Shown one piece after another: positions 46,851 through 55,265 of a stretch of 64,000 bases of DNA; position 1 is the stretch's first letter, and each line of letters starts with the position of its first letter. Location: NCBI RefSeq assembly GCF_035987325.1, contig NZ_CP108488.1, positions 5,766,001 to 5,830,000 of the forward strand. Reading direction: 5' to 3'. Under the pieces are notes generated by a model. That model was not told where the DNA came from and did no database searches. It saw nothing but the letters and a program-made list of their open reading frames with translations. The position numbers and the translations under genes are program-made. Source of the stretch: Streptomyces sp. NBC_01244 (lineage in GTDB: Bacteria; Actinomycetota; Actinomycetes; Streptomycetales; Streptomycetaceae).

Positions 46851-48491
46851 TCAGCTCGGCGGCGTTAGTTCCGCGTGCAGCGCCGCCCGCAGCCGCAGGG
46901 TGGCGACCAGGCGCTGGAAGGCTTCCGACCAGTACGCCGCCGCGCCACCCTCCTCCACCGGCTCCGCCGCCAACGCATCGAGCCGCCCCGCCTCCGCAGG
47001 ATCAAGGCACCGCTCCGCCAGTCCCATCACCCCGCTGAAGCTCCACGGGTAGCCGCCCGACTCCCGCGCGGAGTCCAGCGCCTCGATCACCGCCCGCCCC
47101 AGCGCCCCCGCCCACGGCACCACGCACACCCCGAGCAGTTGGAACGCCTCCGACAGCCCGTGCGCCCGTATGAACTCCGCCACCCACTCCGCCCGTTCCT
47201 CCTCCCCGAGGGCCGACAGGAGCTTCGCCCGCTCCGCCAGCGACGCCGTCGCCGGGCCCGCCGCGGGCGGTGCGGACGCCGAGCCGAGCAATGCCTGCGA
47301 CCACGCGGGGTCGCCCTGCCGCACCGCGGCCCGGCACCAGGCCGCGTGCAGTTCCTCCGCCCAGCCCTCGGCCACCGGCCACGCCACGATCTCCGCCGGA
47401 CCGAGTCCCCCGAACCGGTCCCCCCAGCACGACAGCGGCGCGGACTCCACCAACTGCCCCAGCCACCAGGCCCGCTCCCCGCGCCCGGCCGGCGGCCGCT
47501 TGACCACGCCGTCGCGCAGCATCCCCGCATCGCACTCGGCCGGCGGCGTCACCCCCTCCGGGCCGACGCAGGCCAGCGCTCGCACCGCCATCCGCCCGGC
47601 CAGCGCCGAGGTCGGCAGTGCGGACAGCAGCTCGGCGGCGGTCGCCCGGACATTGCGGCTGCGGTCGCCCAGCGCCGCTTCGAGGAACGGCTCGTCACCC
47701 GCCGACAGCCCCACCCGCAAGGAGTCGAGGAACATCAGCCGGTCCTCGGCCCGTTCGGTGCTCCACGTGGTCTCCAGCAGCCGCGGCCCGGCGGCCGCCT
47801 CGTGGGCCCGTACGAGGCCGAGCAGCGCGACGCGCTCGGCGAACAGCCCCTCCTGCCACAGCCGCTCCACTCCCATCGCGTCCCGCACGTCGGGCAGTTC
47901 GCCGGCGCCCCCGGAGCCCCCGCGCAGTGCGAACCGCCAGTCCGGATTGAGCCGGGCCAGCCACAGCCCGCGCGTCCCGGCCAGGGCCAGCGCCTGCGGC
48001 CGGAGGTCGCTGCGGGCCCGGGCGACGTCCAGCAGTGCGGGCACGAGCGAGGCCGGCGCCCGGTACCCGTGCTGTCCGGCGGCTGCCAGCCACTGCGGCA
48101 GCAGCTCCGTCAGGTCCGGGGCGGCCCCCCGCCGCCCGCTGCCGCTGCCCGCACCGGCCCGGCTCGCCAGCAGCTGCGCGAGCCGCCGCCGGGCCGGCTC
48201 CGGAGGCTCCGGACGCGGGTCGCGCGGGGCGGGCTCGGGACGCGGGCCGGCCTCGGCGGGTCTCAGCCCGGCCCGGCGCCGTACCGTCTGCACGGCCGCT
48301 GCCCCGAGCAGGGCCTCGGGACTGCCCCGGCGCCGCTCGGTGCCCAGCAGCGCGGTGCTCACCAGCTCGTCCCAGTTCCCGTCCGCGTAGGCCGTGTCCA
48401 CCGACCCGTCCGTCGTTCTGTCCGTCGCTCTGTCCGTATGCGTGTCCGTATGCGTGCCCGTGTGCGTGTGCGTGTCCGTGGTCGTGTTCAC
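46851..48491 (-). CDS. DUF5691-type protein of the SWIM/MoxR/VWA locus
   Basis: 546 residues with no catalytic motif. The N-terminus carries a Thr/His/Asp repeat (TDTHTHTGTHTDTHTD). From about residue 40 it is helical, with repeats that look HEAT-like (EDRLMFLDSLRVGLSAGDEP, then EAALGDRSRNVRATAAELLS). I assign DUF5691 from this and from the neighbourhood. The GTG at 48491 follows GAGGGAGGG. It lies 223 bp downstream of the SWIM gene on the same strand. In E. coli the yehLMPQ cluster has an analogous large helical partner (YehI), so this may be a structural subunit of the complex (inference). Confidence 0.75.
   Translation of the reverse strand: MNTTTDTHTHTGTHTDTHTDRATDRTTDGSVDTAYADGNWDELVSTALLGTERRRGSPEALLGAAAVQTVRRRAGLRPAEAGPRPEPAPRDPRPEPPEPARRRLAQLLASRAGAGSGSGRRGAAPDLTELLPQWLAAAGQHGYRAPASLVPALLDVARARSDLRPQALALAGTRGLWLARLNPDWRFALRGGSGGAGELPDVRDAMGVERLWQEGLFAERVALLGLVRAHEAAAGPRLLETTWSTERAEDRLMFLDSLRVGLSAGDEPFLEAALGDRSRNVRATAAELLSALPTSALAGRMAVRALACVGPEGVTPPAECDAGMLRDGVVKRPPAGRGERAWWLGQLVESAPLSCWGDRFGGLGPAEIVAWPVAEGWAEELHAAWCRAAVRQGDPAWSQALLGSASAPPAAGPATASLAERAKLLSALGEEERAEWVAEFIRAHGLSEAFQLLGVCVVPWAGALGRAVIEALDSARESGGYPWSFSGVMGLAERCLDPAEAGRLDALAAEPVEEGGAAAYWSEAFQRLVATLRLRAALHAELTPPS
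48421..48488. repeat. Short tandem repeat at the 5' end of the DUF5691 gene
   Basis: Degenerate 6-bp and 12-bp repeats of the GTGTCCGTATGC kind encode the Thr/His/Asp tract at the protein N-terminus. The copy number is likely variable between strains. Confidence 0.75.
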
Positions 48492-48714
48492 CGGATGCCC
48501 TCCCTCTTTCCCTCGTGTGCCGTGCCGTGTGCGGGTGGTCGTGCTCCGGTCCCGCCCCCTCCGCGGGACCGGAGCAGCTCGGTCTGTTTCCCTGTGGCGC
48601 ACACGGCCGTACCTACGGCCTCAACTGGCGTGGTTGTCGTCCACGAAAGCCCCCCGGCTCACTCGTTTCGAATACGTCGGCGCCCCCGCGCCGCCGCTTT
48701 CCCCCTGCGCCCGC

Positions 48715-50127
48715 TCAGCCCAGCACCACCGGCTCCGAGGAGTCCTGATGCCAGGCCGTCAGCGGGGTGAATCCGCGGTGTCCGCATTCGCCGAACACCG
48801 TCAGCGGGCCGCCTCCCGAAAGCGCGGCCAGCTGCCACATCCCGGTCCCGATCCGGCTCCCGGCCCCGGTCAGGGGCACGGGCAGGGCGGACATCCCCTC
48901 CGCGTCCGCCAATTGCCATGTCGCCGAGCCCTGTTGCTGTCCCTGCCGTCCTCCCTGTTGTCCTCCCGGTATCGGAACCACCGGGCCGAGCACCACCGGC
49001 CAGGACTCCAGCCAGGGGTCCTCGCGCAGTGCCGCGCCGTACGCCTCCAGTGCCGCGCCCGCGCTCACGCCGGTCGGCGCGGTCCGGCACGGCGCGGCCG
49101 GCGCGAACCTCTCCCCGAGATCCGCGCGCAGCCCGGCGGAGCCGGGCCGGAAGCGGGCTTCCGCCTCCAACACCAGCCCGACGGGCAGCGCCAGCCCCGG
49201 CGGTCGCCCGGGCGGGCCGAAGTCCAGGACCAGGGCCGGCCGCCCGCTCGCCAGCCCGCGCAGCCATATCCGGCGGGTGGTGAGACGGCCGTCCGGTGAC
49301 GCCGTGTCGTACTGGGCCAGCACGAGCCAGTGGTCCCGTACGGCCTCGCCGTCCGTCTGGGGCTGCAGTCCCAGACGGCTGCGGACCGTCGCGGCCAGCG
49401 GTTCCGGCAGTCCGGAAACCCCCAGCCAGGCCCGGTCCAGCAGGTGCAGCAGCGCGGCCTCCTCCAGCATCCGGGCGGGCCAGCCGGCGCCGCAACTGGG
49501 TATCGTCCCCAACTCCCGCACCCGCGCGGCCAGTCCGGGTGCCTGGGCGTCGACCATCCGGGCGGCGGTCTCCTCCCAGGCCGCGTATCCCGCCCGCTCC
49601 TGACCGGCGAGGCCGCCGCGCACCAGGTCCGCGAGCCGCTGTTCCAGCTCGGTGACGCCCGCGCCGATCCGGGCCGCCCGCCGCTCGGCCCGCTTGCGGG
49701 CCCCTTCGGCGTCGGCGGGCCCCGCCCGGCCGGAGCGGTCGGCGGCCGGGCGCGCTGCCTTCGCCGCCCGCTCGGCGAGCCACCCGTCCGCCCAGTCCGG
49801 AGCTTCGGCCGAGGTGCCGGCCGAGGTGCCGGCCGAGGTGTCGAGCCCCTCCGCGGCCCAGAGCAGCAGCAGGCCCAGCGCGTGCTTGCACGGGAACTTC
49901 CGGCTCGGGCAAGAGCAGTTGTACGCCGGCCCGGACAGGTCGACGACCGTCCGGTACGGCTTGCTGCCGCTGCCCTTGCACAACCCCCACACCGCACCGG
50001 AAGCGGAACCTCCGGTCTGTGACCACGGCCCCGCCCCACCGAGTCTGGCCCCCGCCTTGCGTGAGGCATCGTCAGGAGCCAGAGCCAGTACCTGTTCCGC
50101 TGTCCAGCGGACCCCCTGCTCAGTCAT
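48715..50127 (-). CDS. SWIM zinc-finger protein of the MoxR/VWA locus
   Basis: 470 residues. The SWIM motif CxC-x6-CxH is C71, C73, C80, H82 (NCSCPSRKFPCKH), preceded by a beta segment (GSKPYRTVVDLSGPAY) as in other SWIM domains. The remaining 370 residues contain a coiled-coil helix and a C-terminal region without known motifs. The family occurs with MoxR/VWA/DUF5682 genes, for instance YehQ in E. coli (from memory). SWIM domains bind DNA or protein. The ATG at 50127 is 7 bp after the -10 of a predicted DNA-damage promoter, so the mRNA is probably leaderless. It is divergent from the moxR gene. Confidence 0.88.
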   Translation of the reverse strand: MTEQGVRWTAEQVLALAPDDASRKAGARLGGAGPWSQTGGSASGAVWGLCKGSGSKPYRTVVDLSGPAYNCSCPSRKFPCKHALGLLLLWAAEGLDTSAGTSAGTSAEAPDWADGWLAERAAKAARPAADRSGRAGPADAEGARKRAERRAARIGAGVTELEQRLADLVRGGLAGQERAGYAAWEETAARMVDAQAPGLAARVRELGTIPSCGAGWPARMLEEAALLHLLDRAWLGVSGLPEPLAATVRSRLGLQPQTDGEAVRDHWLVLAQYDTASPDGRLTTRRIWLRGLASGRPALVLDFGPPGRPPGLALPVGLVLEAEARFRPGSAGLRADLGERFAPAAPCRTAPTGVSAGAALEAYGAALREDPWLESWPVVLGPVVPIPGGQQGGRQGQQQGSATWQLADAEGMSALPVPLTGAGSRIGTGMWQLAALSGGGPLTVFGECGHRGFTPLTAWHQDSSEPVVLG

Positions 50128-50134
50128 GTGTTCC

Positions 50135-50157
50135 ACGGTAGAGACCCCCACTGACAA
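50135..50157 (-). promoter_or_regulatory. RecA-NDp/PafBC-type DNA-damage promoter of the SWIM gene
   Basis: On the minus strand, TTGTCAGTG (50157-50149), N8, TACCGT (50140-50135). This is a full match to tTGTCRgtg-N8-TAnnnT. The -10 ends 7 bp before the ATG. Confidence 0.75.
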
Positions 50158-50194
50158 TCGCTCTGACCTGCAACAACACATCTTCCGGGGCCCG

Positions 50195-50217
50195 TTGTCA
50201 GTGGTCGGGTGCATCGT
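50195..50217 (+). promoter_or_regulatory. RecA-NDp/PafBC-type DNA-damage promoter of the moxR operon
   Basis: TTGTCAGTG (50195-50203), N8, CATCGT (50212-50217). It matches the motif except C for T at the first -10 base. With the SWIM promoter it makes a perfect CCACTGACAA / TTGTCAGTGG inverted repeat (arms at 50148 and 50195, 37 bp apart). Confidence 0.65.
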
Positions 50218-50261
50218 GGTTCCAGCAGTCGGAAGCGGCTGCGCAGCATTGGAGGGGGACC

Positions 50262-51368
50262 ATGGCCACGACCGGGAACGAGACCACCGCAGAGGCGCTG
50301 CGACCGCACGCCGAAGACGCCTTCGCGCACGAACTGAAAGCCCTGGCGGCCGCCGACGACCGGCCCCGCCCGGCCCGCTGGAAACTCTCCCCGTGGGCCG
50401 TGGCCACGTACCTGCAGGGCGGCACGCTCGAAGACGGCACCGTCATCACACCCAAGTACGTCGGCCCGCGACGGATCGTCGAAGTCGCCGTCACCACCCT
50501 CGCCACCGACCGCGCGCTGCTGCTCCTCGGCGTGCCCGGCACCGCCAAGACCTGGGTGTCCGAACACCTCGCCGCCGCCGTCAGCGGAGACTCCACCCTC
50601 CTCGTCCAGGGCACCGCCGGCACCCCGGAGGAGGCCATCCGCTACGGCTGGAACTACGCCCGCCTCCTCGCCCACGGCCCGAGCCGCGAAGCGCTCGTAC
50701 CGAGCCCGGTCATGCGGGCCATGGCCGAGGGCATGACCGCCCGCGTCGAGGAACTCACCCGGATCCCCGCCGACGTCCAGGACAGCCTCATCACCGTCCT
50801 GTCCGAGAAGACGCTCCCGATACCGGAGCTCGGCCAGGAAGTGCAGGCCGTGCGCGGCTTCAACCTCATCGCCACCGCGAACGACCGCGACCGCGGGGTC
50901 AACGAGCTCTCCAGCGCGCTGCGCAGGCGCTTCAACACCGTCGTCCTGCCGCTGCCCGCCACCGCCGACGCCGAGGTCGACATCGTCGCCCGCCGCGTCG
51001 ACCAGATGGGCCGCGCCCTCGACCTGCCCGCCGCCCCGGAGGGCCTGGAGGAGATCCGCCGCGTCGTCACCGTCTTCCGCGAGCTGCGCGGCGGAGTCAC
51101 CGACGACGGGCGTACGAAGATCAAGTCGCCCAGCGGCACCCTGTCCACCGCCGAGGCCATCTCCGTGGTCACGGGCGGCCTCGCCCTGGCCGCCCACTTC
51201 GGGGACGGCGTCCTGCGCCCCTCCGACGTGGCCGCGGGGATCCTCGGGGCCGTCGTCCGGGACCCGGCCGCCGACCAGGTGGTCTGGCAGGAGTACCTGG
51301 AAGCCGTGGTCCGCGAGCGCGACGGCTGGAAGGACTTCTACCGGGCCTGCCGGGAGGTGACGGCATGA
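50262..51368 (+). CDS. MoxR-type AAA+ ATPase
   Basis: 368 residues. Walker A is GVPGTAKT (90-97). The Walker B equivalent reads ARVEELTRIP (E163-E164), with Glu where most MoxR proteins have Asp-Glu. Sensor 1 is LIATANDRDRG and an Arg-finger region is SSALRRRFN. MoxR ATPases act as chaperones with VWA proteins, for example in metal-centre insertion or complex assembly. GGAGGGGG precedes the ATG. The stop overlaps the next gene's ATG (ATGA), so moxR and DUF5682 are translationally coupled. The resemblance to E. coli YehL and its neighbours is from memory. Confidence 0.92.
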   Translation: MATTGNETTAEALRPHAEDAFAHELKALAAADDRPRPARWKLSPWAVATYLQGGTLEDGTVITPKYVGPRRIVEVAVTTLATDRALLLLGVPGTAKTWVSEHLAAAVSGDSTLLVQGTAGTPEEAIRYGWNYARLLAHGPSREALVPSPVMRAMAEGMTARVEELTRIPADVQDSLITVLSEKTLPIPELGQEVQAVRGFNLIATANDRDRGVNELSSALRRRFNTVVLPLPATADAEVDIVARRVDQMGRALDLPAAPEGLEEIRRVVTVFRELRGGVTDDGRTKIKSPSGTLSTAEAISVVTGGLALAAHFGDGVLRPSDVAAGILGAVVRDPAADQVVWQEYLEAVVRERDGWKDFYRACREVTA

Positions 51369-53701
51369 GCCCCGGGACGACGGTCCCGAACACCCACGGC
51401 ACGGTCGCCGCGGGCCCGCTGCTGCTCGGCGTACGGCACCACGGGCCCGGCTCGGCCCGCGCGGTGCGCGCCGCCCTGGACGCGGCGCGGCCGGCGGCGG
51501 TGCTGATCGAGGGACCGCCGGAGGGAGACGCCCTGCTCCCGCTCGCCGCGGACCCGGGGATGCGCCCGCCCGTCGCCCTGCTCGCCCACGCGGCCGACGA
51601 CCCGGGGCGGGCCGCGTTCTGGCCCCTGGCCGGCTTCTCCCCGGAATGGGCCGCCATCCGGTGGGCGCAGGAGCGGGACGTGCCGGTGCGGTTCATCGAC
51701 CTCCCGGCCGCGCACTCGCTGGCCGTGCCGGAGGCCCCGGAGCAGGACCCGGAGGGGGCGGGGGACGCGGCGGACGGAGCGGCGCACGGATCCGTACGGC
51801 TGGACCCGCTGGCCGTGCTGGCGGAGACCGCCGGGTACGAGGACCCCGAGCGGTGGTGGGAGGACGTGGTCGAGCACCGTGGCGGGACGGGACCGGCCAC
51901 CGACCCGCTCGGCGTGTTCGAGGCGCTCGGAGAGGCCATGGGCGCCCTGCGCGAGGAGTACGGGGCGGGCGGCCACCACCGGGACCTGGTGCGCGAGGCG
52001 TACATGCGGCAGCGGATGCGGGCCGCGCGCCGGGAGTTCGGCGACGCCTACGCCGTCGTCTGCGGGGCCTGGCACGTCCCGGCCCTGCGGACGAAGACCA
52101 CCGCGGCCGCGGACAAGGCGCTCCTCGCCGGCCTGCCCAAGGTCAAGGTGGAGACCACCTGGGTGCCCTGGACCCACCGGCGCCTCGCCCGGGCCGGAGG
52201 GTACGGCGCGGGCATCACCTCGCCCGGCTGGTACGCACACCTCTTCGCGGCCCGGGACCGGCCCGTCGAACGCTGGCTGACCAAGGTCGCGGGCCTGCTC
52301 CGCGAGGAGGACCGGCAGGTCTCCCCGGCCCACGTCATCGAAGCCGTCCGGCTCGCCGACACCCTGGCCGCGATGCGGGGCCGGCCGGTGCCGGGGCTGA
52401 CGGAGACCCTGGAAGCGGTCCGGGCGGTGATGTGTGACGGCTCCGACATACCGCTCGCCCTGATCGAGGACCGGCTCGTCGTCGGAGACGTGCTCGGCGA
52501 AGTCCCCGACGCGGCGCCCGTCGTACCGCTCCAGCGCGACCTCACCCGCCGGCAGCGCTCGCTGCGGCTCAAGCCCGAGGCGCAGGACCGGGAACTGGAA
52601 CTCGACCTGCGCAAGGACACCGACGCGGCCAAGTCCCTGCTGCTGCACCGGCTGCGGCTGCTCGGCATCGACTGGGGCGTCCCGACGGCCTCCCGGGGGA
52701 GCACGGGCACCTTCCGCGAGACCTGGCGGCTGCGCTGGGAGCCGGAGCTCGCGGTGCGGGTGGCCGAAGCCGGCATCTGGGGGACCACCGTCCTCGGGGC
52801 GGCCACCGCCAGGGCCGAGGCCGACGCGGCGGGCGCCGGGGACCTGGGCGAGGTCACCGCCCTGGCGGAGCGGTGCCTGCTGGCCGGGCTCTCCGGGGCC
52901 CTGCCCGCCGTACTGCGGGCCCTCGCCGACCGGGCCGCGCTGGACACCGATGTGGCGGGCCTGGCCAAGGCGCTGCCCGCGCTGGCCCGTTCGCTGCGGT
53001 ACGGGGACGTACGAGGCACGGACGCGGCGGCCCTGGGGACGGTGGCGGCCGGGCTCGCGGAGCGGATATGCGTGGCGCTGCCGCCCGCCTGCGCGGCCGG
53101 GCTGGACGCCGACGCGGCGGAGGAGCTGCGGGGGCACGTGGACGGCGTGCACGGTGCGGTCGGGCTGCTGGAGGCGCTGGACACGGACGGCCTGCGGGAG
53201 CGCTGGGCGGCGGTGCTGCGGACGCTGGCCGGGCGCGACACCGTCCCCGGGCTGATACGCGGGCGGGCGGCGCGGCTGCTGCTCGACGACGGGCGGCTGG
53301 CGCCCGAGGAGACCGCCCGGCTGATGGGGCTCTCGCTGTCCCCGGCGTGCGCGCCGGCCGACGCGGCGGGCTGGATCGAGGGGTTCGCGGGCGGGGGCTC
53401 GGGCGGCGGCACGCTGCTGGTGCACGACGAGCGGCTGCTGGCGCTCATCGACGGCTGGCTGGCGTCGGTGCCGGAGCGGGCGTTCATCGACGTGCTGCCG
53501 CTCCTGCGGAGGACCTTCGGTGGGTACGAGGCGGGGGTTCGGCGGAGCCTGGGGGAGCTGGTGCGGCGGGGGCCGGGTGGGGGCCCGGCCGGGGTGGGGG
53601 CCGGGGGCGCGCCGGACGGCTTCGGTGCGGAGCTGGATCCGGTCCGGGCGGATGCGGTGGTGGACCTGGTCCAGCTGCTGCTGGCGGGGGCGCGGGGGTG
53701 A
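51365..53701 (+). CDS. DUF5682-type protein of the MoxR/VWA locus
   Basis: 778 residues. The N-terminal domain begins LLLGVRHHGPGSARAVRAAL and VLIEGPPEGDALLPL and contains AYAVVCGAWHVPAL, a pattern reminiscent of TraB/PrgY-like or erythromycin-esterase-like folds with conserved His. The middle and C-terminal parts are helical, Ala/Leu/Arg-rich and of unknown fold. No membrane helix or signal peptide is present. The ATG at 51365 overlaps the moxR stop. E. coli YehM is the likely relative. Function is unknown; the fixed association with MoxR and VWA suggests a client or core of the complex. Confidence 0.82.
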   Translation: MSPGTTVPNTHGTVAAGPLLLGVRHHGPGSARAVRAALDAARPAAVLIEGPPEGDALLPLAADPGMRPPVALLAHAADDPGRAAFWPLAGFSPEWAAIRWAQERDVPVRFIDLPAAHSLAVPEAPEQDPEGAGDAADGAAHGSVRLDPLAVLAETAGYEDPERWWEDVVEHRGGTGPATDPLGVFEALGEAMGALREEYGAGGHHRDLVREAYMRQRMRAARREFGDAYAVVCGAWHVPALRTKTTAAADKALLAGLPKVKVETTWVPWTHRRLARAGGYGAGITSPGWYAHLFAARDRPVERWLTKVAGLLREEDRQVSPAHVIEAVRLADTLAAMRGRPVPGLTETLEAVRAVMCDGSDIPLALIEDRLVVGDVLGEVPDAAPVVPLQRDLTRRQRSLRLKPEAQDRELELDLRKDTDAAKSLLLHRLRLLGIDWGVPTASRGSTGTFRETWRLRWEPELAVRVAEAGIWGTTVLGAATARAEADAAGAGDLGEVTALAERCLLAGLSGALPAVLRALADRAALDTDVAGLAKALPALARSLRYGDVRGTDAAALGTVAAGLAERICVALPPACAAGLDADAAEELRGHVDGVHGAVGLLEALDTDGLRERWAAVLRTLAGRDTVPGLIRGRAARLLLDDGRLAPEETARLMGLSLSPACAPADAAGWIEGFAGGGSGGGTLLVHDERLLALIDGWLASVPERAFIDVLPLLRRTFGGYEAGVRRSLGELVRRGPGGGPAGVGAGGAPDGFGAELDPVRADAVVDLVQLLLAGARG

Positions 53702-53738
53702 GGGGCCCTGGCGGGGCGGCCGCGGTGGGCCGCTGCGC

Positions 53739-54016
53739 GGGGCGGAGTCCCCTACCCGCCCTCGCCCGTTCCCCGGGGCTGCGCCCCGGACCCTTCGCCG
53801 GGTGCGGCGCCGTTTCCGGGGGCCAGCCCCCGGACCCCCGCTCCTCAAACGCCGGAGGGGCTGGATTTTCGCGGGCGTCAGCCTGCACGTGCACGCAGGA
53901 GGTGGGTCCATTCAGCCTCGCCGGCGTTTGAGGCGCGGGGTCTGGGGCGGAGCCCCAGGAGGGGTCCGGGCGCAGCCCGGGGAACGGGCGAAGGGCGGGT
54001 AGGGGACTCCGCCCCG
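53739..54016. repeat. Dispersed palindromic element, copy B (about 278 bp, MITE-like)
   Basis: Long imperfect inverted arms of about 56 bp (53739-53793 and 53963-54016; both carry GGGGCGGAGTCCCCTACCCG when read from their own end) differ by only a few indels. They flank an inner repeat with CTCAAACGCCGGAGGGGCTG (53843) and CAGCCTCGCCGGCGTTTGAG (53913). It fills most of the 394-bp gap between DUF5682 and VWA genes and shares its inner part with copy A. No transposase gene is present. Confidence 0.85.
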
Positions 54017-54095
54017 TGCGGCGGTATCGGTCGGGGGATGCCCCGCACCGGCCAGCACAGGTTGATGGGTGTGGCGAGAGTGAGGGGTGGGACCG

Positions 54096-55265
54096 ATGGA
54101 GATGGCTGGTGCGGAAGTGAGTGGCGGCGGCGCCGAGCGGTTGCGGCGGTGGCGGATGGTGTTGGGCGGGGGAGAGGGGGAGGGGACCGGGTGTGCGCTG
54201 AGCGGGGCGGACGCCGGGATGGATGCCGCGCTCGGGGCGCTGTACGGGGGAGACGGCGGCGGAGGGCGCAAGCGGGCGGGGGAGAGGTCGGCCGGGCTCG
54301 GCGGCTCCGCACCGAACGTGGCGCGCTGGCTCGGGGACATCCGGACGTACTTCCCCACCTCCGTGGTGCAGGTCATGCAGCGGGACGCGATCCAGCGGCT
54401 CGGGCTGTCCGCCCTGCTGCTGGAGCCCGAGATGCTGGAGGCGGTGGAGCCGGACGTACACCTCGTCGGCACCCTGCTCTCCCTCAACAAGGCCATGCCC
54501 GAGACCACCCGGGAGACCGCCCGCGCCGTCGTCCGCAAGGTGGTCGAGGCGTTGGAGAAGCGGCTCGCGAGCCGGACGCGGGCCACGCTGACGGGCGCGC
54601 TCGACCGGTCCGCGCGGATCAGCCGGCCGCGGCACGCGGACATCGACTGGGACCGGACCATCCGGGCGAACCTGACGAACTATCTCCCCGAATACCGGAC
54701 CGTCGTCCCCGAGCGGCTGATCGGATACGGGCGCGCCTCGAGGGCGGTGAAGAAGGAGGTCGTGCTGTGCATCGACCAGTCCGGTTCGATGGCGGCCTCC
54801 GTCGTCTACGCCTCCGTCTTCGGGGCGGTGCTGGCCTCGATGCGTTCGATCGCGACACGGCTGGTCGTCTTCGACACCGCGGTGGTCGACCTGACGGATC
54901 AGCTCGACGATCCCGTCGACGTGCTCTTCGGCACCCAGCTCGGCGGCGGCACCGACATCAACCGCGCGCTCGCCTACTGCCAGTCGAAGATCACCCGTCC
55001 CGCCGACACCGTCGTCGTCCTCATCAGTGACCTCTACGAGGGCGGCATACGCGATGAGATGCTGAAACGGGTCGCGGCGATGAAGGCGGCGGGGGTGGAG
55101 TTCGTGACGCTGCTCGCGCTGTCCGACGAGGGAGCTCCCGCCTACGACCGGGCCCACGCCGCCGCCCTCGCCGCGCTCGGCGCCCCGGCCTTCGCCTGCA
55201 CTCCGGACCTGTTTCCGGAGGTGATGGCCGCGGCGCTGGAGAAGCGTCCCCTGCCCGTTCCGTGA
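54096..55265 (+). CDS. VWA (von Willebrand A) domain protein, MoxR partner
   Basis: 389 residues. The N-terminal half is helical (LGDIRTYFPTSVVQVMQRDA, then PDVHLVGTLLSLNKAMPETT). The C-terminal VWA domain, from about 220, has an intact MIDAS: D227-Q-S229-G-S231 in CIDQSGSM, Thr in GGGTDINRAL and Asp in LISDLYEGG. It should therefore bind a divalent cation and ligand. MoxR-VWA pairs commonly act together; E. coli YehP is the likely relative (from memory). The ATG at 54096 follows GAGGGG; GTG 54087 and ATG 54102 are alternatives. The 394-bp gap from DUF5682 contains the palindromic element. Confidence 0.9.
   Translation: MEMAGAEVSGGGAERLRRWRMVLGGGEGEGTGCALSGADAGMDAALGALYGGDGGGGRKRAGERSAGLGGSAPNVARWLGDIRTYFPTSVVQVMQRDAIQRLGLSALLLEPEMLEAVEPDVHLVGTLLSLNKAMPETTRETARAVVRKVVEALEKRLASRTRATLTGALDRSARISRPRHADIDWDRTIRANLTNYLPEYRTVVPERLIGYGRASRAVKKEVVLCIDQSGSMAASVVYASVFGAVLASMRSIATRLVVFDTAVVDLTDQLDDPVDVLFGTQLGGGTDINRALAYCQSKITRPADTVVVLISDLYEGGIRDEMLKRVAAMKAAGVEFVTLLALSDEGAPAYDRAHAAALAALGAPAFACTPDLFPEVMAAALEKRPLPVP

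Follow-up and report, generated by a model that had tools for sequence, protein, structure and literature searches.

The window analysed here is a 64,000-nucleotide stretch of the Streptomyces sp. NBC_01244 genome (NZ_CP108488.1, positions 5,766,001 to 5,830,000), and our subject is a five-gene locus in it whose two divergent arms are separated by 134 bp, between the ATG of a SWIM zinc-finger gene (50127, minus strand) and that of a moxR-type gene (50262, plus strand). The left arm consists of the SWIM gene (48715..50127, minus strand; 470 amino acids (aa); Pfam PF04434) followed by a DUF5691 gene (46851..48602, minus strand; 583 aa; PF18944, E 1.9e-158). The right arm, all on the plus strand, holds the gene of a moxR-type AAA+ ATPase (50262..51368; 368 aa; AAA_5 PF07728, E 1.6e-37); a DUF5682 gene (51365..53701; 778 aa; PF18934), which overlaps the moxR stop in ATGA; and a CoxE-type VWA gene (54087..55265; 392 aa; VWA_CoxE PF05762, E 6.6e-61). 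A first-pass annotation, made from the letters of the sequence, had predicted that this system is DNA-damage inducible; the range it gave, 50127-55265, takes in moxR, DUF5682 and VWA and leaves outside the SWIM and DUF5691 genes that its title names. An orthologue of the DUF5682 gene was found in 269 of 295 Streptomyces genomes.

The paired outward-facing sites

The intergenic region carries an inverted repeat whose halves (CCACTGACAA from 50148 and TTGTCAGTGG from 50195) lie where the first-pass annotation had placed them. RecA-independent damage promoters (RecA-NDp), also called PafBC-type promoters, have the consensus TTGTCRGTG-N8-TAnnnT. The pattern TTGTCAGTG-N8-YAnnnT has exactly two perfect matches in the whole window, both between SWIM and moxR and facing outward, as had been claimed. 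The chance expectation for perfect matches is 0.01 in the window; two matches arose in 0/100 shuffles, and the facing pair, which occurs once in the window, likewise in 0/100. The SWIM-arm site (50135..50157, minus strand; core 50149-50157; -10 TACCGT at 50135-50140) is a full match to the consensus and its -10 ends 7 nt short of the ATG, again in agreement with the annotation. The moxR-arm site (50195..50217, plus strand; core 50195-50203; -10 CATCGT at 50212-50217; predicted start about 50224) differs solely by a C for T at position 1 of the -10, which the Y of the pattern admits.

Lack of the motif from orthologous loci had been named beforehand as a refutation, and was looked for in two samples of Streptomyces loci, not de-duplicated by species: 80 loci kept out of 565 confirmed relatives (MoxR identity 88-99%), and 80 loci from the 269 genomes with a DUF5682 orthologue (mostly 70-76% identical). 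At no more than one core mismatch both sites were kept in 80/80 loci of either sample, exactly on both sides in 71 and 73, respectively, which amounts to 160/160 loci with both sites and 144/160 exact on both sides, so that the refuting condition was not borne out. The SWIM-side core is exact in 149 of the 160 and its -10 reads TAnnnT in all of them; on the moxR side the core is exact in 154 and the -10 reads CAnnnT in 159, so that the moxR half departs from the strict TAnnnT as a fixed feature. Since the SWIM ATG lies 6-7 nt past the -10 in 159/160 loci, a leaderless SWIM mRNA is a conserved prediction. Core positions hold about 1.7-2.0 bits of information, versus about 0-1.3 bits in 30 upstream positions. 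Control by SOS/LexA was rejected: the SOS box, tested as the exact GAACN4GTTC core alone, occurs in just one of the 160 intergenic regions.

Among 20 loci from 13 other genera of Streptomycetaceae, with two mismatches permitted, the moxR-side site was present in 17, the SWIM-side site in 14, and both in 14. An exact facing pair (gap 25-55) was found in 9 of 396 Actinomycetota genomes, all of them Streptomyces and with one copy each (reversed control 0), and it stands 1.2-1.6 kb upstream of DUF5682 in all nine. Three of the 12 Streptomyces genomes in this draw lack an exact facing pair: two (G023, G193) have one or more sites near moxR, and in the third (G128) no site was seen in the stretch examined. 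In 9 of 13 wider-gap loci inspected by eye, the promoters enclose a small gene that is lipoprotein-like and has a TTGAC-type box of its own.

A central element and stepwise spacing

Between the two sites lies an element read from the sequence, GCAGGTCAG (50163..50171, minus strand; CTGACCTGC on the plus strand), that is common to both arms: seen from the SWIM core it lies 5 nt upstream in direct orientation, and seen from the moxR core 23 nt upstream in inverted orientation. In the 128 loci with a gap below 130 bp, CAGGTC is exact in 116 (2.5% of shuffles) and GCAGGTCR is found within one mismatch in 125. With distances measured to the last of the seven matched bases, the element in direct orientation lies upstream of one core by 5-6 nt (128 cases), 17-18 nt (11) or 0-1 nt (9), and the inverted element lies 13-14 nt (27), 24-25 (72), 36-37 (18), 47-48 (6) or 58-59 (2) from a core; 11 cases below 60 nt fall off these positions (19, 29-31, 42, 55).

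The distance between the cores is likewise stepwise. Below 75 bp only gaps of 7, 25-27, 29-30, 36-39, 47, 49-50, 60-61 and 71 bp occur (distinct sequences, 180 loci), and the main classes of 26, 37, 49, 60 and 71 bp follow each other in steps of about 11-12 bp, with a best period of about 11.5 bp. Repressor-looping experiments in living cells have given helical repeats close to this value. The steps suggest a constraint of helical phase. A FastTree tree built from 152 DUF5682 proteins implies no fewer than 31 changes of gap class, of which one most parsimonious assignment places 13 between neighbouring close classes and 14 as returns from wide gaps; an IQ-TREE tree of 115 close loci requires at least 21 changes. 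Were spacings between 20 and 75 bp unconstrained, 21 landings no more than 2 bp away from one of the five centres would have a probability of about 4e-8, a figure that is a guide only because the centres were chosen after viewing the data. In wide-gap loci (gap of at least 130) a copy of the element lies beside the SWIM core in 21/32 and beside the moxR core in 15/32, so that independent copies are common, not universal.

The motif in the genome and in related clusters

Across the genome as a whole (10.0 Mb in 3 contigs) we counted 24 motif sites versus 0 for the reversed pattern. The first downstream gene was scanned with Pfam at 20 of the 24; two others are those of the present locus, and L003 and L008 were left out. 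Downstream of the sites stand genes of RecA, uracil-DNA glycosylase, an IMS (Y-family) polymerase, Lhr helicase, an SNF2-type helicase, DNA polymerase III delta' and a NUDIX protein, further genes of HEPN_SAV_6107, DUF3375, pentapeptide, WGR, DAO and OrfB_IS605 type, and several without a family. The genome also encodes pafB and pafC (HTH_PafC+WYL+WCX and WYL+WCX genes), close downstream of pafA. In this genome the motif thus marks a real regulon that includes DNA-repair genes. Strict TAnnnT sites occur in 61/61 Streptomyces genomes (1181 in total, median 16, range 3-40, versus 3 control matches). A RecA-NDp promoter was reported before the UV-inducible SCO6735 of S. coelicolor (PMC5087735), and our counts (24 versus 0; 1181 versus 3) agree with that report over the S. 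venezuelae LexA study (PMC9380542); on the RecA/LexA-independent damage response in Streptomyces, a question that the latter leaves open, the counts in 61/61 genomes argue for yes. The sites described here share the TTGTCAGTG core, the 8-nt spacer and the -10 with the RecA-NDp promoters of S. rimosus recA, M. tuberculosis and SCO6735, which head recA and other repair genes. Unlike those, they are two back-to-back sites with GCAGGTCAG common to both, phased spacing and, in the moxR -10, a conserved C, and they would drive a non-repair AAA+/VWA cluster.

The element recurs at other promoters: the composite AGGTCAG-N4-6-TTGTCAGTG was found 71 times in 35 of 41 Streptomyces genomes (reversed control 0). 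Thirty composite-site loci comprise 16 HEPN_SAV_6107-like genes (called by eye, with Pfam for L261 and L006), 4 cases of the present locus, 3 lhr, 3 of a second SWIM gene, and one each of pentapeptide, MFS, unclear and without an open reading frame. Across Streptomyces, the composite promoter is found most often before HEPN_SAV_6107-like genes. The second SWIM gene (C-terminal SWIM) also has a composite damage-type promoter (L263, L276, L287), and in L291 this gene is followed by a large open reading frame. Five sites of the genome precede IS605 OrfB/TnpB-like genes (L010, L017, L020, L021, L022), identified by Pfam OrfB_IS605 for L010 (L021 is below the cut-off), by HTH_OrfB for L017 and by eye for L020 and L022; an inverted element lies at gap 13 in L010, L020 and L021, and a variant of it in L022. 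These would be TnpB-like genes under the control of damage promoters. A DUF3375 gene (JetA-like, Wadjet) on a 300-kb contig has a perfect RecA-NDp site (C2:284537-284559). Viral contigs gave 24 pattern matches, none confirmed, and phage cargo was set aside. A paralogous moxR-DUF5682-VWA locus in the same genome (C1:403000-416000; 33-47% identity over matched parts) has no damage-type site at one core mismatch in 13 kb and was rejected as a second target.

Related clusters occur outside the family. Protein searches returned almost solely Streptomyces. Nonomuraea, Nocardia, Deinococcus, Methylobacterium and Hymenobacter carry SWIM, DUF5691, MoxR, DUF5682 and VWA in this order on one strand (SWIM and DUF5691 being fused in one gene in Hymenobacter); similar clusters occur in Methylosinus and Rhizobium, where the VWA match is broken or the SWIM match weak. 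E. coli yehL-yehM-yehP-yehQ reads MoxR, DUF5682, VWA, SWIM (DUF5682 26-28% identical), and the adjoining of MoxR with VWA, DUF5682 and SWIM that marks YehL-type clusters is found here as well; unlike our locus the yeh cluster lies on a single strand and has no DUF5691 match. The locus also has the MoxR and VWA pair in common with the MoxR-vWA-beta-propeller ternary systems (bpMoxR), but its bpMoxR score is 24.5 bits, under the cut-off of 27, and no beta-propeller domain was found among the seven proteins scanned around it. A literature search on DUF5682 found no paper, and one on the E. coli yeh genes returned unrelated papers only.

Outside the family, 26 loci (L037-L054, L233-L240) showed no RecA-NDp site at one core mismatch, the yeh cluster, the five co-directional clusters and those of Methylosinus and Rhizobium among them; for L037-L054 about 1.5 kb around DUF5682 was covered, with promoters before a distant SWIM out of view. 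Loose two-mismatch sites (Nonomuraea L234 2816, plus strand, about 230 nt ahead of where SWIM is estimated to start; L237 930, minus strand; two inside E. coli genes) are taken as chance. LexA-type and Deinococcus radiation/desiccation response motif (RDRM) patterns were absent upstream of the first gene in the fully read clusters. Universal damage control of MoxR-VWA-SWIM clusters was thus rejected, and with it the suggestion of the first-pass annotation that the promoters give a physiological context to this whole kind of cluster: a RecA-NDp link confined to Streptomycetaceae gives none by itself. In this family the five-gene set forms two divergent arms with one site apiece; we infer that the splitting of the set coincided with the arrival of the damage promoters.

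Interpretation and rival explanations

We consider it probable that the 134-bp region comprises back-to-back PafBC-type (RecA-NDp) promoters for both arms of a five-gene machine, switched on by single-stranded DNA (ssDNA), with GCAGGTCAG as a second protein contact and with phased cores. In the proposed mechanism ssDNA would build up upon DNA damage, at stalled forks or under strongly negative supercoiling; PafBC would redirect the housekeeping RNA polymerase to the -26 core on each side; SWIM-DUF5691 (leftward) and MoxR-DUF5682-VWA (rightward) would rise together; and a protein would contact GCAGGTCAG between the promoters, cores and element being held roughly on one DNA face. What the computation shows are the two sites and how well they are conserved, a regulon, pafB/pafC, GCAGGTCAG and phased spacing; we infer the activator, the signal, the co-induction of the arms and the protein binding. 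The PafBC/ssDNA reading of the locus is a well-supported hypothesis. The regulatory prediction of the first-pass annotation is right as far as can be read from the DNA, wider in mechanism (the element common to both arms, the phasing of the spacing and the published TopA work come in addition) and narrower in taxonomy: conservation, the repair regulon, pafB/pafC and a very probable TopA-induced counterpart strongly support the link to the damage regulon, which holds in one family.

This counterpart is SCO4803-SCO4805 of S. coelicolor, very probably orthologous to the moxR-DUF5682-VWA arm because protein size and spacings agree with those of relatives. SCO4804 has 815 aa and 86.04 kDa, with 103 bp of non-coding DNA upstream and 171 bp downstream (PMC8120823); in relative L221 the DUF5682 protein, if read from a GTG, has 815 aa and 86.1 kDa and begins 102 nt past the moxR stop, with 170 nt left to a VWA start, and in L154 it has 815 aa and a 102-nt spacing. 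The parts of PMC8120823 covered name no domains, PafBC promoter or SWIM arm. There, sco4804 and adjacent genes rose eightfold upon TopA depletion; a sco4804 transposon mutant, polar on sco4805, had lower topA and gyrB transcripts; and SCO4804 bound DNA non-specifically, its effect on topA being concluded to be indirect. TopA depletion also induces dnaE2, dinP, recX, recA, lexA and uvrA (PMC6637917). As PafBC is activated by ssDNA (PMC11804915), ssDNA from hypernegative supercoiling would be a simple common cause of both responses, and the PafBC reading thus offers an explanation for the published induction.

Several points weigh against the PafBC reading. The moxR -10 is fixed as CAnnnT; neither site is present in 3 of the 20 loci from other genera of the family (L241, L243, L259), nor, at one core mismatch, in the 26 loci outside it; spacings above about 75 bp (gaps 85-201 bp) show no phasing; and beside the moxR core of wide-gap loci an exact match to the element is absent at about half (16/32). 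The identity of SCO4803-4805 comes from relatives L221 and L154 and not from S. coelicolor sequence, and TopA depletion alters supercoiling besides damage signalling. The S. venezuelae LexA study gave the M. smegmatis PafBC motif as not conserved there (PMC9380542).

Direct control by supercoiling, in which the promoters respond to negative supercoiling and PafBC is dispensable, is what the S. coelicolor authors propose, reading the eightfold induction as supercoiling-dependent (PMC8120823), unlike our reading. We regard it as unlikely: the cores are the RecA-NDp sequence common to recA and other repair genes, and TopA depletion and up-regulation alike induce recA, recX, lexA, dnaE2 and dinP (PMC6637917), which agrees with a damage-type signal better than with supercoiling in a single direction. 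That PafBC drives a single arm, with the weaker CAnnnT half at moxR serving another factor or as a basal promoter, would account for the differing -10 boxes (159/160 versus 160/160); it is nevertheless quite unlikely, as the moxR core is exact in 154/160 loci, composite sites upstream of HEPN_SAV_6107 and Lhr genes carry CAnnnT as well, and the published induction concerns precisely the moxR arm.

PafBC binding to the motif has been shown in mycobacteria only, and the initial S. venezuelae search missed the mycobacterial motif (PMC9380542), so another WYL or unknown regulator might read TTGTCAGTG in Streptomycetaceae for a stress regulon of another kind. This is hardly probable given that the same motif heads recA here, that pafB and pafC are encoded, and that the motif was reported before UV-inducible SCO6735 in S. 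coelicolor. Most improbable is an anti-phage or anti-plasmid system, although MoxR-VWA modules are found in predicted conflict systems (PMC10910872) and DUF5682 and VWA have phage-protein relatives, with one phage record matching: none of the five proteins matches PADLOC models at E 0.01, which leaves the defence complex suggested by the first-pass annotation without support; the bpMoxR score is below its cut-off in a cluster without a beta-propeller gene; and an orthologue in 269/295 genomes is nearer to the core genome than to patchy defence.

Returning to the PafBC-type promoters, a more far-reaching form can be put forward tentatively, and we hold it to be less probable than not. GCAGGTCAG might be a second activator contact (for PafC's own helix-turn-helix, a second PafBC or a co-activator) that defines a class of composite damage promoters; the divergent complexes might be mechanically coupled on one DNA face at about 11.4 bp per turn; and both arms of a topology-responsive AAA+ machine might fire as one switch on ssDNA, feeding back on topA and gyrB expression. 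Already on the main reading, the phased composite promoter is a new architecture, and a widespread, uncharacterised AAA+/VWA/DUF5682 cluster would gain a concrete signal in one family.

On the analogy of NorQ-NorD and RavA-ViaA, two MoxR-VWA pairs, the five-gene product is probably an AAA+ remodelling complex. The closest solved relatives of this MoxR are midasin and NorQ. The AlphaFold2 model of DUF5682 (predicted local distance difference test (pLDDT) 87.5) is alpha/beta in its N-terminal domain and built of helical repeats towards the C terminus. Fold matches were weak, with no significant one from Foldseek and the VIA rows lying mostly over helical repeats; a TraB/EreA/ChaN-like fold is one candidate for the N-terminal domain. 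The model of the SWIM protein is of middling confidence (pLDDT 76.3). Residues identical in 62/62 aligned DUF5682 sequences (RHH at 24-26, E49-G50-P51, D112, E211, G234..W236-H237) suggest an active site. The DUF5682-VWA gap of 385 bp (53702-54086) holds long GC-rich inverted repeats, whereas in relatives L153 and L155 a VWA start overlaps the DUF5682 stop instead.

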